A stretch of 64,000 bases of DNA from Bdellovibrio reynosensis. Lineage in GTDB: Bacteria; Bdellovibrionota; Bdellovibrionia; Bdellovibrionales; Bdellovibrionaceae. Position numbers and translations under genes: made by a program. The DNA lies in the NCBI RefSeq assembly GCF_022814725.1, contig NZ_CP093442.1:248001-312000 (forward strand), given 5' to 3'. Under the pieces are notes generated by a model. The model saw only the letters and a program-made list of their open reading frames with translations. It made no database searches and was not told where the DNA came from. Position 1 is the stretch's first letter. Each line of letters starts with the position of its first letter. Shown here piece by piece: positions 36,931-63,053 of this stretch.

Positions 36931-38346
36931 TTAGTCTGTGTAGCCGAAAAGTTTTTTTGTTTTGATTAAGTCGCGCACTTTTTCTGGCACTTTGCTTTCC
37001 CATTCAGGATCGCCCTTTTCAATCATCTTCATGACATCTTTAGAGTGCAAGTAATCATCAGTTTCATCACAACCGGAGATTTCAACGATCTGGTTGTTTT
37101 CAATAAAATGTTTATAGACGTGACGTAGATTAGGTGACGGGAAGAAGCTTTTCGCGGTTAAGCAAAGTACGTTGGTTTTATGCGGATAAACGTAAAGCTT
37201 CGTTTTTTGCTCTAAAAGTTTACCCAAACCTTCAAGCAATCCACCTTCTAAGTTTTTATAGTGTTCTTCTGTGAATAATTTTTCTAAGTGGCTTGCGCCC
37301 ACTACCAAAGCCATAAAGTGAGAGTTGTAGCGTCTTAAGAAACGTTTTAATCCATAGAATAAAAAGAAGTTTGAAATCAAAACATGATGTCCAAGACTTG
37401 TTAACGTTTCTACACGCTCTAAGAAATCTTTTTCATCCACTTCTCCGCCGGTTTGCAGATTGTGCATGGTTAGTTCCATCATCGGCAGGATTTCTAAGTC
37501 TTTGCCTTCGCTTTTTAGGATGTCAGACTTCATTTGCACTAAGCCTTTTTGCAAGACATCTACGTGGGTAACCGTAACCGGGCGGAAGTGACCACGTTGA
37601 ATCAATAGTGACTTTCCGTAAACAGCATCTGCGATATTAAGAATTTCGTTTTCAGGTGAAAATAAAATAGCTTCAGCCAAACCGCGACGAACAAGTTCAA
37701 GATTCATCAGGCGCTCATTAAAGTGCGTAAGGGCAGGCCCTTTAAACTTAATCACATCAATAACAACTTGGCCTTCTTTTAAGTTATCAACCAAGCGCGG
37801 AATAAATTCTTCGGGATTACCGATGTGGTAAAAGGCGCAATCCAAAAGATTCACCCCTAAAACACCCAAAGCTTCTTGTTGTTGCAAGCGATAGCGATCC
37901 AGCATTCTTATATGTAAAATAATATCGTTGCTTGGACCTTCAGGTTCTGTTTGAAAGCGCACACCCATCCAACCGTGGGATTGTTTGTTGCTGCCAGAAG
38001 AAGCGGTCGCCACGGTGTTAGCGAAAGAAAAGAAGCGCGAAGTTTTGCCGCGGCCTTCGCTAAGGCGTTCTACTAAAAGATCGTATTCATGCCCTAGCAT
38101 TTTATACAGACGGGGTTCACAAACATATCGACCATTGGCTTCGCGGCCGTAAATGTCGTCGCTTACAACCATATCGTAAGCGGAAATCGTTTTTGCAATC
38201 GTTTGTGAGGCTTTACCTGCTTGGAAGAAATGGCGGGCAACTTCTTGGCCTGCCCCAATTTCAGCAAAAGCTCCATAGCGGGAAGTGTCTTTGTTAATTT
38301 TTAAAGCTTTGCCGTGGGTGTTTTCAGGAGTATGAGAATCAGCCAT
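36931..38346 (-). CDS. Conserved protein of unknown function (GAFAEIGAGQEVARHFF family)
   Basis: A 471-residue soluble protein. The N-terminal stretch YGAFAEIGAGQEVARHFFQA, then SQTIAKTISAYDM and SDDIYGREANGRYVCEPRL, belongs to a family I recall as widespread in Bacteroidota and other phyla under unreliable names such as TonB-dependent receptor or nicotinate-nucleotide adenylyltransferase. Neither name fits: there is no signal peptide, no barrel and no nucleotidyl-transferase HxGH. Strong conservation suggests an enzyme or scaffold. Its start overlaps the DUF502 gene stop by one base, so it may work with that membrane protein. Confidence 0.75.
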   Translation of the reverse strand: MADSHTPENTHGKALKINKDTSRYGAFAEIGAGQEVARHFFQAGKASQTIAKTISAYDMVVSDDIYGREANGRYVCEPRLYKMLGHEYDLLVERLSEGRGKTSRFFSFANTVATASSGSNKQSHGWMGVRFQTEPEGPSNDIILHIRMLDRYRLQQQEALGVLGVNLLDCAFYHIGNPEEFIPRLVDNLKEGQVVIDVIKFKGPALTHFNERLMNLELVRRGLAEAILFSPENEILNIADAVYGKSLLIQRGHFRPVTVTHVDVLQKGLVQMKSDILKSEGKDLEILPMMELTMHNLQTGGEVDEKDFLERVETLTSLGHHVLISNFFLFYGLKRFLRRYNSHFMALVVGASHLEKLFTEEHYKNLEGGLLEGLGKLLEQKTKLYVYPHKTNVLCLTAKSFFPSPNLRHVYKHFIENNQIVEISGCDETDDYLHSKDVMKMIEKGDPEWESKVPEKVRDLIKTKKLFGYTD

Positions 38347-38948
38347 TATTTTTTCTCGCCTTCTTTATCAGCTTTCACCCAGCCTGTGATAGCTAAGCTC
38401 ATGGCTTTTTCAATTGGCATATCTAACGGTGTGATGCGGGAACGAGGTACCATCAAGGTAAATCCACCAAGACCATAACTCATCGGCACGTAAACGGCGA
38501 TGCGATCCCCGGCGTTTTGTTCAATGGCAGGAATATCTTTAAAATTTTCTCGAGTCACAAGACCCAAAACGCGGACACCGGTTTCACCCATGTCTACGAA
38601 GACGACCTTTTGTAAACCACCAGGTCCGCCGCCCTTAGAAAATAAATTCATCAGGTCACGAAGCGGGGAATAGATTGCTTTAATAAACGGAACTTGAGTC
38701 ATGCGTTGCTCAAGTTTTTGAAAAAGACCGCCAGTTAATAAGTTGTTTAAGGCTAAGCCCAACAACATGATTAAAGCCACAGTCAGTAAAAAGCCCAAGC
38801 CCGGAATATAAATCGGCAGAATGCGACGAAGAGAATCACCTAAAAAGCTATCAACAATAGTGATGCCGGCATAGATAATATAAATAGTCAGAGCAATTGG
38901 CAGAAAAGTGACGAGACCTTGCAAGAAGATTTTCTGAAGTTGTTTCAT
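38346..38948 (-). CDS. DUF502-family membrane protein
   Basis: A 200-residue inner-membrane protein with two N-terminal helices (LVTFLPIALTIYIIYAGITI and LGFLLTVALIMLLGLALNN) and a C-terminal beta-rich cytoplasmic or periplasmic part with IKAIYSPLRDLMNLF, VVFVDMGETGVRVLGLVT and VYVPMSYGLGGFTLMVPRS. This is the DUF502 pattern. No function has been established for the family. The stop overlaps the start of the following gene as TAATG, which indicates tight co-translation with the conserved unknown protein. Confidence 0.85.
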   Translation of the reverse strand: MKQLQKIFLQGLVTFLPIALTIYIIYAGITIVDSFLGDSLRRILPIYIPGLGFLLTVALIMLLGLALNNLLTGGLFQKLEQRMTQVPFIKAIYSPLRDLMNLFSKGGGPGGLQKVVFVDMGETGVRVLGLVTRENFKDIPAIEQNAGDRIAVYVPMSYGLGGFTLMVPRSRITPLDMPIEKAMSLAITGWVKADKEGEKK

Positions 38949-39105
38949 AGCTGGATATCCTGTTCGTCTAACATTATCGGTAGTTCATAAATATCAGCTA
39001 AGTCGAGTACGCTCAAGCTCTTAGCTTTTCGCAAAATGAGACACATTTTTCACTTAACCCTCCTAGACTCCTGACCGAAAAGAATGGGGTCACGAAGGAG
39101 AACCG

Positions 39106-40989
39106 GTGAAACCGATTCTAAAGACGCTTTTTATTGCTGTTGTAACTGTAAGCTCTGCAGCCTTCGCTCGCCCCGAAGCTAAAGTGGTTCCAGGAGAATA
39201 CCTTGTGAAGTTTAAGGCTTCCTCAGGCGGTGCTTCTATTGCCCACCAAAAGATTCAAGGAAAGGCGACTTTAAAAGCCAATTTCCATGGCCTGGGCATG
39301 ATGCAAATCAATATGAAGGCCGGTCCCGATGAAAAAGCCAATTTCGAAGCTTTAAAAAATGACCCCGATGTTGAATACATTGAGCCTAACTACGTTTTAG
39401 AAAAGTCTGATGTTGTCGTCAGTGAGTCTTTTGAACGCCAATCTTACGAACAATTTTCTAATAGTTCTTTTGCATCCACAAATCCCGCGGTGTATTCGCA
39501 AAATAATGCCAATACAGGTATTGATTCAGCGTGGCCTGTTTTAACTGCGTTAGATGGCAGCCATGGCAAAATCGTTGTTGCCGTGATCGATACTGGTTTA
39601 GACAAGAATCATGATGTCTTTAAAGCTTATAACTCAAATGGCTCTGGCGGGACGGGATCGTTGTGGGTGAATCCAATTGAAGCTAATGGTTCCGCAGGCG
39701 TTGATGATGACCAGAACGGTTATGTTGATGACATCAACGGTTGGAACTTTATTAATAACTCAGGCAACTTTGCTGATGACGATGATCACGGAACCCACGT
39801 AGCGGGGATCGTTGTCGGGGCTTCGCAAAATATTTTTGCTCGTCCACTGCAAGAATCAAAAATCCAAATCATGCCTTTAAAATTCTTAGACGGGGCGGGT
39901 TCTGGGTCCACTTCCAACGCGATTCGTGCGATTTATTACGCTGTTAATAACGGTGCAAAAGTCATTAATAATTCTTGGGGAGGCGCTTCTTACAGTCGTG
40001 CCCTTCATGATGCGATCACTTATGCTTACGATCATAAAGTTTTAGTCGTCTGTGCTGCCGGAAACTATGCTAGTGATAACGACGCTTATCCGATGTACCC
40101 GGCAAACTATGATGTTCCAAGCAATCTTTCAGTGGGTTCAACCACGCGCTTTGATGATCTTTCAAGTTTTTCAAATTATGGCGCAAATACAGTTCATATT
40201 GGTAGCCCGGGTGAATATATCGAAAGTACTGTTCCTGGTAATCAGATGATGAAGATGCACGGAACAAGTATGGCCGCTCCGTTTGTTGCGGGGGTGGCAG
40301 CTCTTGCGATGCGTGAAGCTCCCTCATTATCTGGCTATCAGATTAAAGAATTAATATTAAGAACGGGTGATACGAACGGTTATCTTAGCAGTTTGATCTC
40401 CACAAGTTCCCGCATTGATGCCCTTTACTTACTGCAAGAAGCCCAACAAATGGTGTCGACAGCTTCTTCGCAGCCTGGTTACAAGCCGTCTTATTTGTCT
40501 GAGCGGGCTCCGGCGTCTGAGTCTTCAGGCGGTGGCGGTGGCTGCGGTTTAGTAAAAGCGGTGACTGAAAATGGCCCGGGTTCAGGCAGAGGTTCTGGCG
40601 GTGGTGCGGGTGTCGTAATTGGCTTACTGATGATGCCACTGGTGTTCTGGCAGGCTTTAAGAAGCCGTGAACCGAAATCAAAACGTAAATACGAACGCTT
40701 TAAAATGAGTTCTGAAATCCGCGTGATGGTGGGTGATAAAGAACTTGTGGGTAACGTGAACACGATCTCTGAAGGTGGTTTGTCGTTTAATACCGAAGCT
40801 GCTCTTGAAAAAGGCGGCATCGTTACAATGCGAATCCAAAGCCCAGACGGTCACGAGTCCATCGAAGTGCAAGGTCACGTCGTATGGAACGAGAAAAACC
40901 AAGCTTACGGAGTGCAGTTCGATAATGCTAAGCAGGGCGCCCTTGCCATGATTAGGGATTGGTCTGCTAGCTTAGTTAAAAGTAATTAG
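39106..40989 (+). CDS. Subtilase (S8) with transmembrane anchor and C-terminal PilZ domain
   Basis: A 627-residue fusion. Signal peptide 1-21; inhibitor-like propeptide about 25-100 (GEYLVKFKASSGG...DVEYIEPNYV); subtilisin domain about 135-450 with Asp162 (VIDTGLD), His228 (DHGTHVAG) and Ser388 (GTSMAAPF). A Gly/Ser-rich segment with one Cys (GGGGGCGLV, Cys480) leads into a hydrophobic helix at 502-518 (GVVIGLLMMPLVFWQAL), a basic stop-transfer run (RSREPKSKRK) and a PilZ domain from about 525: RKYER fits RxxxR, while TISEGG has Thr where Asp/Asn is usual. Predicted topology: periplasmic protease, cytoplasmic c-di-GMP-type domain. The frame is continuous. GTG start after GGAG. Confidence 0.88.
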   Translation: MKPILKTLFIAVVTVSSAAFARPEAKVVPGEYLVKFKASSGGASIAHQKIQGKATLKANFHGLGMMQINMKAGPDEKANFEALKNDPDVEYIEPNYVLEKSDVVVSESFERQSYEQFSNSSFASTNPAVYSQNNANTGIDSAWPVLTALDGSHGKIVVAVIDTGLDKNHDVFKAYNSNGSGGTGSLWVNPIEANGSAGVDDDQNGYVDDINGWNFINNSGNFADDDDHGTHVAGIVVGASQNIFARPLQESKIQIMPLKFLDGAGSGSTSNAIRAIYYAVNNGAKVINNSWGGASYSRALHDAITYAYDHKVLVVCAAGNYASDNDAYPMYPANYDVPSNLSVGSTTRFDDLSSFSNYGANTVHIGSPGEYIESTVPGNQMMKMHGTSMAAPFVAGVAALAMREAPSLSGYQIKELILRTGDTNGYLSSLISTSSRIDALYLLQEAQQMVSTASSQPGYKPSYLSERAPASESSGGGGGCGLVKAVTENGPGSGRGSGGGAGVVIGLLMMPLVFWQALRSREPKSKRKYERFKMSSEIRVMVGDKELVGNVNTISEGGLSFNTEAALEKGGIVTMRIQSPDGHESIEVQGHVVWNEKNQAYGVQFDNAKQGALAMIRDWSASLVKSN

Positions 40990-41014: not shown

Positions 41015-41050
41015 TAAAAAAGCTTCGCTAACAAAGCGGAGCTTTTTTTT
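41015..41050 (+). terminator. Intrinsic terminator after the subtilase gene
   Basis: AGCTTCGCT at 41021-41029 pairs with AGCGGAGCT at 41035-41043 (one mismatch), flanked by an A-run before and a run of eight or more T after. It ends transcription from the subtilase-PilZ gene. Confidence 0.85.
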
Positions 41051-41136
41051 TGCGCTCGAGCAGTGATTTTGAGTGTTTTTTACCAAGTCTGTTTCTTGAG
41101 GGTAAGACTTTGCGAGTAATTTAGTAACATGAATAT

Positions 41137-62381: not shown

Positions 62382-63053
62382 ATGGAACCAAAATCATCAA
62401 CATTGGAACGACCACGGGCCGTGCAAATGGCCGCTGCAGTATTAATCGCAACTCCTGTTTTAGACATCATGATGATGCAAAGAACTGGAACGCAGATATT
62501 TTCATGGATCAGTTGGGTGATGATTGCCGGAGCAGGAATCAGTTTGATGATTCGCCATAAGCTATCTTGGCTGGTGGGCATTGCTTTATGCTGCCTTTTT
62601 GTTCTTTCTACCGGTTTTAGTTTGTTTCACGATTTAGAGTCTGCAGACCCTATTGTCAGTTCGGCTAAACTATTGGACTGCTTACTTGTGTTATTTATCG
62701 TGGGCACTGTTTCTTACTTTTTCAGATATCCTTACTTAGATCGTCGCCAAAATTGGTTTGCGCCAACAGGGGAACGTTTTGCTCTTTCCATGTCTGTTGT
62801 TCTAGATGGCGTTGAAACTCAAACTCTAGATCTTTCGTATACCGGGGCTAAAATTGCCACACCAGAAGGTGCTACCTTCAAAGTGGGCGATAAAATTCCA
62901 TTGCAGTTCAGCGAAATTAACGACATCCAGTGTTGGGCCCGAATTATTGACTCGAAACCAGGCCAAGTCCGCGTTCATTTCGAGGACACTTCGGCCGGTG
63001 ATAAAGAGATGATTCGTCAGTGGCTTTCTGCCCAAAATTTACAAAAAGTCTAA
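62382..63053 (+). CDS. Membrane-anchored PilZ-domain protein
   Basis: A 223-residue protein with four membrane helices (about 15-110) and a C-terminal PilZ domain from about 125: ERFALSMSVVLDGVETQTLDLSYTGAKIATP, where DLSYTG fits the DxSxxG c-di-GMP motif; a clear RxxxR is not certain (DRRQN and ERFAL are candidates). The exact motif split is read by eye. It would bind c-di-GMP at the inner membrane, with a role that is not apparent. The ATG at 62382 was chosen; a longer frame from 62277 overlaps the divergent gene. Confidence 0.72.
   Translation: MEPKSSTLERPRAVQMAAAVLIATPVLDIMMMQRTGTQIFSWISWVMIAGAGISLMIRHKLSWLVGIALCCLFVLSTGFSLFHDLESADPIVSSAKLLDCLLVLFIVGTVSYFFRYPYLDRRQNWFAPTGERFALSMSVVLDGVETQTLDLSYTGAKIATPEGATFKVGDKIPLQFSEINDIQCWARIIDSKPGQVRVHFEDTSAGDKEMIRQWLSAQNLQKV

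Follow-up and report, generated by a model that had tools for sequence, protein, structure and literature searches.

The gene at 39106-40989 of a 64,000-nucleotide stretch of the Bdellovibrio reynosensis genome (contig NZ_CP093442.1, positions 248,001 to 312,000; the whole stretch is called the window here) encodes a subtilase that is joined to a PilZ domain by a Gly-rich, Cys-containing segment and a membrane helix. The joining segment looks like a sorting signal, yet such signals normally form the very end of a protein. The locus therefore raises the question of what this segment is, and of what a predicted c-di-GMP sensor placed behind it could do for an exported protease.

Architecture, distribution and gene context of the S8-PilZ protein

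The gene has the following features, in window coordinates.

39055-39081, forward strand: candidate sigma28 (FliA)-like promoter, TAAC-N15-ACCGAAAA, proposed from a CCGA core and a single-sequence score
39095-39100, forward strand: ribosome binding site AAGGAG, 5 bases 5' of the GTG, read from the sequence
39106-40989, forward strand: S8-PilZ open reading frame, 627 aa, GTG start
39106-39168, forward strand: signal peptide, residues ~1-21, with a Lys-rich start, a hydrophobic core and SAAFA; helix at residues 2-19 in the model; predicted cleavage site
39169-39390, forward strand: subtilase prodomain, to residue 95 (PF22148, Fervidolysin_NPro-like, E=1.6e-8, residues 16-95)
39568-40374, forward strand: Peptidase S8 catalytic domain, residues 155-423 (PF00082, E=2.7e-51; D162, H228, N320, S388)
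40498-40602, forward strand: disordered Gly-rich linker, residues 465-499 (pLDDT <50 across 465-501)
40540-40548, forward strand: GCG motif with the invariant Cys480, the sole cysteine conserved in 29/29 sequences
40540-40683, forward strand: internal module resembling a sorting tail (GCG, linker, LLxxP helix, basic residues; E=8.8e-10 with a profile of non-S8 tails)
40603-40662, forward strand: single transmembrane helix, residues 500-519, with the invariant Pro511 (AlphaFold2 helix; alignment)
40681-40962, forward strand: PilZ domain, residues 526-619 (PF07238, E=9.4e-18; R527/R531 as RxxxR, S555-x-G557-G558)
41020-41051, forward strand: terminator-like hairpin with a T-run (intrinsic type), 3' of the stop, recognized by eye in the sequence

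A preliminary description of this DNA had read a signal peptide, a propeptide, a full S8 triad, a Gly-rich Cys segment, one helix, a basic stretch and a PilZ domain in a single frame. Pfam, AlphaFold2 and the alignment confirm all of these parts. The protease belongs to the S8 family by its Asp-His-Ser triad (D162/H228/S388) with N320, its Pfam match and its structural match to 3vv3, and the PilZ profile scores 64.9 bits against a Pfam gathering score of 22.5. The closest solved protein by sequence is deseasin MCP-01 (3vv3, E=1e-57), and Foldseek on the predicted model also places the protease part in S8 with a match to 3vv3. The AlphaFold2 model, which was built from 29 sequences, has the prodomain and the S8 domain at high confidence, disorder at residues 465-501 and a helix at 500-519. 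The helix does not adjoin the GCG motif directly but starts about 20 residues past it. The PilZ-like strands are modelled at modest confidence (pLDDT ~45-67), and a search of solved structures with the PilZ part returned weak matches only, to PilZ 'type IV fimbriae assembly proteins'. The basic juxtamembrane stretch after the helix is RSREPKSKRK. Hydrophobicity, charges and conservation fit a one-pass topology in which the protease is external and the PilZ domain cytoplasmic, which supports the orientation proposed earlier at the level of sequence-based prediction.

The preliminary description proposed a domain search for other S8-PilZ fusions, and they are present in 89 of the 99 sampled genomes of the class, usually in one copy per genome. 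When 60 relatives were searched with the protein, nearly all yielded full-length orthologues, at 40-75% identity from genus to order. A C-terminal profile matched 90 of 291 genomes of the phylum (20 in the genus, 29 in the family, 38 in the order, 2 in the class and 1 elsewhere in the phylum). The lone match beyond the class is weak; the protein, 369 aa long, is a membrane PilZ protein that lacks S8. Ten class members have no match; one of these has a version with a degenerate PilZ, two have S8 and the tail but no PilZ, and the other seven are five genomes of 2.0 Mb or less and two fragmented assemblies (210 and 230 contigs). No full-length S8-PilZ was found outside the class in the 291 phylum genomes or in 84,980 species genomes. 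The scan of the latter found the architecture at 29 loci, nearly all in Bdellovibrionota records, and the remaining records have names that are generic or clearly wrong. A Streptomyces griseus MAG record (L054) contains an S8-PilZ gene and neighbours that are both of Bdellovibrio type and is very likely mislabelled. The presence across the class indicates that S8-PilZ is not a chance fusion. Across 29 diverse sequences, residues D162, H228, N320, S388, C480, P511, R527, R531, S555, G557 and G558 do not vary. Since C480 is the only conserved cysteine, it has no conserved intrachain disulfide partner.

The fusion itself has been known since 2008, when a survey tabulated 'Subt-PilZ' from one B. 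bacteriovorus protein, NP_969350.1 (PMC2605481, Table 3). This protein has the same two domains in the same order, comes from the same bacterial group and is probably the orthologue of the window protein. The table entry reads 'Signalling', and the fusion is also placed there under modules of unknown function. Unlike the present analysis, the survey entry makes no mention of a membrane helix, tail, conservation or mechanism.

The FliA-like site of the window gene is weak, with a 9/12 match that 20% of shuffles equal. Its relatives score stronger, and most genus orthologues have the CCGA core at the corresponding aligned position of their upstream region. A FliA promoter for this gene is suggestive only. 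A FliA-like site is found in most attack-phase genes of B. bacteriovorus (PMC3627812), and the expression of the pilZ genes Bd2524, Bd2545 and Bd3100 drops on exit from the attack phase (PMC2797640). The S8-PilZ orthologue of B. bacteriovorus is suspected to be one of these three. The divergent DUF502 gene (38346-38948, reverse strand) has a FliA -10-like element, ACCGATAA, upstream at 38974-38981 (reverse strand), which is present in most genus relatives. Since FliA-like elements are kept upstream of both, the two divergent genes may be attack-phase genes.

A 471-aa protein (36931-38346, reverse strand) has no Pfam family and adjoins DUF502 and S8-PilZ across most of the family. The neighbours (the 471-aa gene, DUF502, MgtE and an ABC pair) are common within the family and absent near more distant S8-PilZ members. 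Operon logic was therefore rejected as a guide to function. A response regulator lies directly 3' of S8-PilZ, and it holds that position only at the window's own locus. The window has a second PilZ match at ~62811-63026 (forward strand; locus L012, 37.1 bits) within a 259-aa open frame, and the whole genome has 17 PilZ matches.

The tail module on unrelated exported proteins

The firmest new result of this analysis is the identity of the tail module. The linker and helix of S8-PilZ recur as a free C-terminal tail on unrelated exported proteins. Judged by its residues, the segment is a lineage-specific tripartite module of the sorting-signal type, made up of GCG, a flexible linker, a Leu-Leu-x-Pro helix and a basic end. 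The pattern on other proteins is GCG[LTMS][VI], a Gly/Pro linker, an LLP helix and Arg/Lys, and it forms the extreme C-terminus of matrixin-like, gingipain-like (C25), LPMO-like and PilZ-less S8 proteins. A matrixin-like M10 metalloprotease of the same genome (G000:C1:1476086-1476808, reverse strand), first picked up as a weak profile match, ends in GCGLVKQNPPTNGSTMWWACLALLLPLLIYSKLRFKLSQTRS, and three homologues from a whole-protein search have the same kind of end. Two S8 proteins of relatives stop right after the helix, with ...EGGGCGRV...GWVFLLFPFLAAIILRPKRKAVS in L112 and ...GGGCGLVKS...LLLMPLFAFLALRRRCLYQD in L113.

A tail profile found many further carriers in 99 genomes of the order. 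The 30 matches examined include M10 proteases, three C25 proteases, LPMO-like proteins of the SCE4755 family, a possible zinc phospholipase, S8 proteins and unclassified proteins; a few are plain membrane proteins and represent chance matches. True carriers nearly all have the motif at a distance of 31-65 residues from the stop. The C25 carriers are at least 1,499 to 3,298 aa long. Three very large gingipain-like C25 proteases of Bdellovibrionales (L198, L209 and L210) have the GCG-type tail directly after the catalytic domain. The small-genome members of the order (G203, G233, G242, G309 and G312; 1.2-1.5 Mb) have no tail match at E<=0.5 and a single rhomboid match each.

In a reciprocal test, a profile made from 25 non-S8 tails only was searched against 2,478 ORFs from the window, the PilZ loci of the same genome and loci of other species. 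All 31 matches at E<0.01 are S8-PilZ proteins, and the next match is at 0.39. The window ORF has E=9e-10 and is listed twice via two loci; no other window ORF matched. Ten column-shuffled control profiles together produced a single match below 0.01. A profile that contained S8 tails was the original source of most of the 25 tails, a caution that applies less to the four M10 tails. A profile from those four alone ranks S8-PilZ proteins 1 to 16, at weaker E-values. The raw DNA pattern GCGx[VI] gives 71 matches against 66 in the reversed control and is thus uninformative by itself; a proper helix and end occur among its matches only in S8-PilZ and matrixin.

One short tail is therefore found on unrelated exported proteins of one lineage, as is generally expected of a sorting signal. 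LPXTG, GlyGly-CTERM and MYXO-CTERM are regarded as end-of-protein signals that undergo cleavage. The earlier observation that a segment normally terminal is here followed by a domain is borne out by the C-terminal tails of the unrelated proteins. A sorting-type tail appears to be retained internally throughout an entire class whose members are largely predators, with a predicted second-messenger receptor behind it. The tail family points to a sorting pathway in Bdellovibrio-type bacteria for which no NCBIfam model gave a match.

Possible control of the tail by the PilZ domain

To our knowledge, many Bdellovibrio PilZ proteins have no established job. Canonical c-di-GMP-binding PilZ domains have RxxxR and [D/N]xSxxG motifs. 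RxxxR is present as R527 and R531 in 29/29 sequences and starts about 8 residues past the helix. The second motif departs from the canonical form at position 553, which is T in 18 and S in 11 sequences; S555 and G557/G558 are present in 29/29. Two further members outside the 29 (L119 and L118) have D or N at this position. Binding of c-di-GMP by the window PilZ is plausible. In PilZ proteins with known complexes the RxxxR linker wraps the ligand, so the bound ligand could alter the tail at its cytoplasmic end. In B. bacteriovorus, c-di-GMP controls life-cycle decisions (PMC3271064).

In a tree of the S8 part, the PilZ-less L112 groups with L201, a protein with a PilZ too degenerate for Pfam to detect, and both fall within the S8-PilZ group (98% SH-aLRT). 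PilZ has thus probably disappeared at least once without loss of the tail. L202 is at the base of the tree, L113 is weakly placed inside the group and L208 is an unplaceable long branch.

We propose the following chain of events. The signal peptide would export the protein until the single helix halts it in the inner membrane, with the subtilase outside and PilZ in the cytoplasm, and the subtilase would fold and autoprocess after export. The GCG linker, Pro-containing helix and basic end would act as a processing or sorting tail, as on other Bdellovibrio-type secreted proteins, and would hold the protease until release. An intramembrane protease may cut the tail, perhaps after lipid modification of the Cys. 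The subtilase would then be released, or handed to the cell surface or periplasm, and the helix and PilZ would remain. PilZ would sense c-di-GMP and control either the cutting of the tail or the location of the protein, which would tie protease delivery to the attack-to-growth switch. The whole chain, from export through a tail cut that releases the protease to a PilZ domain that makes this step c-di-GMP-dependent, is quite possible but falls short of probable. It is somewhat unlikely that c-di-GMP on PilZ gates the cutting of an internal Cys-type tail from an undescribed Bdellovibrionota family with its own sortase and so frees a surface protease. If PilZ does control the cut, c-di-GMP would directly govern the delivery of surface proteins, which would be a concrete c-di-GMP output in the attack-to-growth switch of Bdellovibrio. 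A cell signal could in this way control the delivery of an exported protease via a predicted c-di-GMP sensor.

A processable tail is supported by the class-wide architecture in usually one copy per genome, by the invariant catalytic residues together with C480, P511, R527/R531 and S555-x-G557-G558, and by the same tail ending matrixin, C25, LPMO-like and S8 proteins along with the reciprocal profile test. The retention of the tail where PilZ goes (L112 with L201), the MYXO-CTERM precedents (PMC11980579) and the life-cycle role of c-di-GMP (PMC3271064) also support it. Against it count the lack of a CPBP enzyme and of a rhomboid above the rhombosortase cut-off in the genome, or of any near tail genes elsewhere, and the presence of the only rhomboid class compatible with all examined carriers in genomes where tails are absent. 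The T/S in place of D/N in 29/29 and the modest confidence of the PilZ model also count against it. In addition, if the tail were cut immediately, PilZ could regulate little.

The protein may instead be a stable transmembrane receptor-protease, the main idea of the preliminary description. Its helix would then serve simply as an anchor, no cut would take place, and c-di-GMP on PilZ would alter the activity or clustering of the periplasmic subtilase. This agrees with the retention of the architecture as a single polypeptide across most of the class, an RxxxR that adjoins the membrane and a PilZ domain retained with its invariant residues. However, a plain anchor needs neither an invariant GCG nor a helix proline, and it need not share them with the free C-terminal tails of unrelated proteins. 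The predicted disordered linker before the helix would also conduct a conformational change poorly, and we consider a receptor of this kind unlikely.

It is less likely still that PilZ is a passenger or simple localiser on a working, tail-sorted subtilase, and that it has stopped reading c-di-GMP or does no more than bind a partner. The change of D/N to T/S in 29/29 aligned sequences and the lineages that retain S8 and tail with a degenerate or missing PilZ would suit such a role, but R527, R531, S555, G557 and G558 stay invariant despite identity down to ~42%, which is unexpected for a passenger, and two further members have the canonical D/N. The topology would also permit signalling from the outside in. 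Here the protein itself, prey enzymes or an intramembrane protease would cut the tail and so free or alter the PilZ part for a role inside the cell. The helix proline and Gly-rich linker of S8-PilZ recall features seen in substrates of intramembrane proteases. However, the PilZ part has no known output domain, and the loss of PilZ with retention of the tail suggests that the outside half is the constant part, so that this direction of signalling seems very improbable.

Known sorting systems and candidate cutting enzymes

The preliminary description had likened the segment to a GlyGly-CTERM-type sorting signal. The same tail on unrelated exported proteins agrees with the kind of signal, but membership in the GlyGly-CTERM family was rejected. 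TIGR03501 has no match in the window protein at E<1 or in the genome at E<=10, the segment is internal, and the motif is centred on Cys. The genome has three rhomboids, which are below the rhombosortase cut-off (best TIGR03902 score 42.7 against 84) and, by eye, are without the diagnostic active-site His, at the position defined in PMC3237569. MYXO-CTERM membership was also rejected, because TIGR03901 scores are under the cut-off (no match for the window tail; 18.2 bits against 20 for the best tail of a relative) and the myxosortase family CPBP (PF02517) has no match across the whole genome. The motif of MYXO-CTERM (an invariant Cys, a helix and an Arg-rich end) has its counterpart in the conserved C480, helix and basic residues.

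Rhomboids occur in 99/99 genomes of the order, so co-occurrence with the tail gives no discrimination. Of the rhomboid classes, only the GlpG-like one typified by L089 fits all the tail carriers examined, and genomes without tails have it as well. The L091-type rhomboid was rejected as the tail-cutting enzyme because it is absent from many tail-positive genomes. In the L090 rhomboid (G000:C1:1465715-1466173) the active-site stretch, GASAS, is atypical, and the protein has a long insertion. It lies ~10 kb from the tail-bearing matrixin gene in the same genome; this is taken as coincidence. For 19 tail genes of other genomes, no rhomboid was found within ~8 kb.

The membrane-anchored PilZ regulators Alg44 and BcsA control polysaccharide synthesis. 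Like S8-PilZ, they have PilZ beside a membrane helix with RxxxR in the juxtamembrane linker; the outside domain of S8-PilZ differs in being a protease on a sorting-type tail.

Among sorting signals, GlyGly-CTERM with rhombosortase (PMC3237569, PMC6219818) shares with the window tail a tripartite order of motif, helix and basic residues, a Gly-rich composition and a place on secreted proteases. MYXO-CTERM with MrtX of Myxococcota shares an invariant Cys in a Gly-rich motif, the helix, an Arg-rich end and one internal copy (PMC11980579), and is the nearer of the two. Its carriers are surface proteins, and the signal (invariant Cys, helix, Arg) is cut and confers surface anchoring (PMC11980579). 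The window tail differs in its longer gap between Cys and helix and in its helix proline. The internal copy is in MXAN_5598, where a beta-barrel follows and the N-terminal part is proposed to be still processed (PMC11980579). An arrangement resembling it is seen in L204 (G281:C9), which has Asp-rich repeats, a GGGGGCGLV tail and a barrel-like domain with weak Pfam support in one frame. The domain behind the internal tail is a beta-barrel in MXAN_5598 (PMC11980579), whereas in S8-PilZ it is a PilZ domain predicted to be cytoplasmic.
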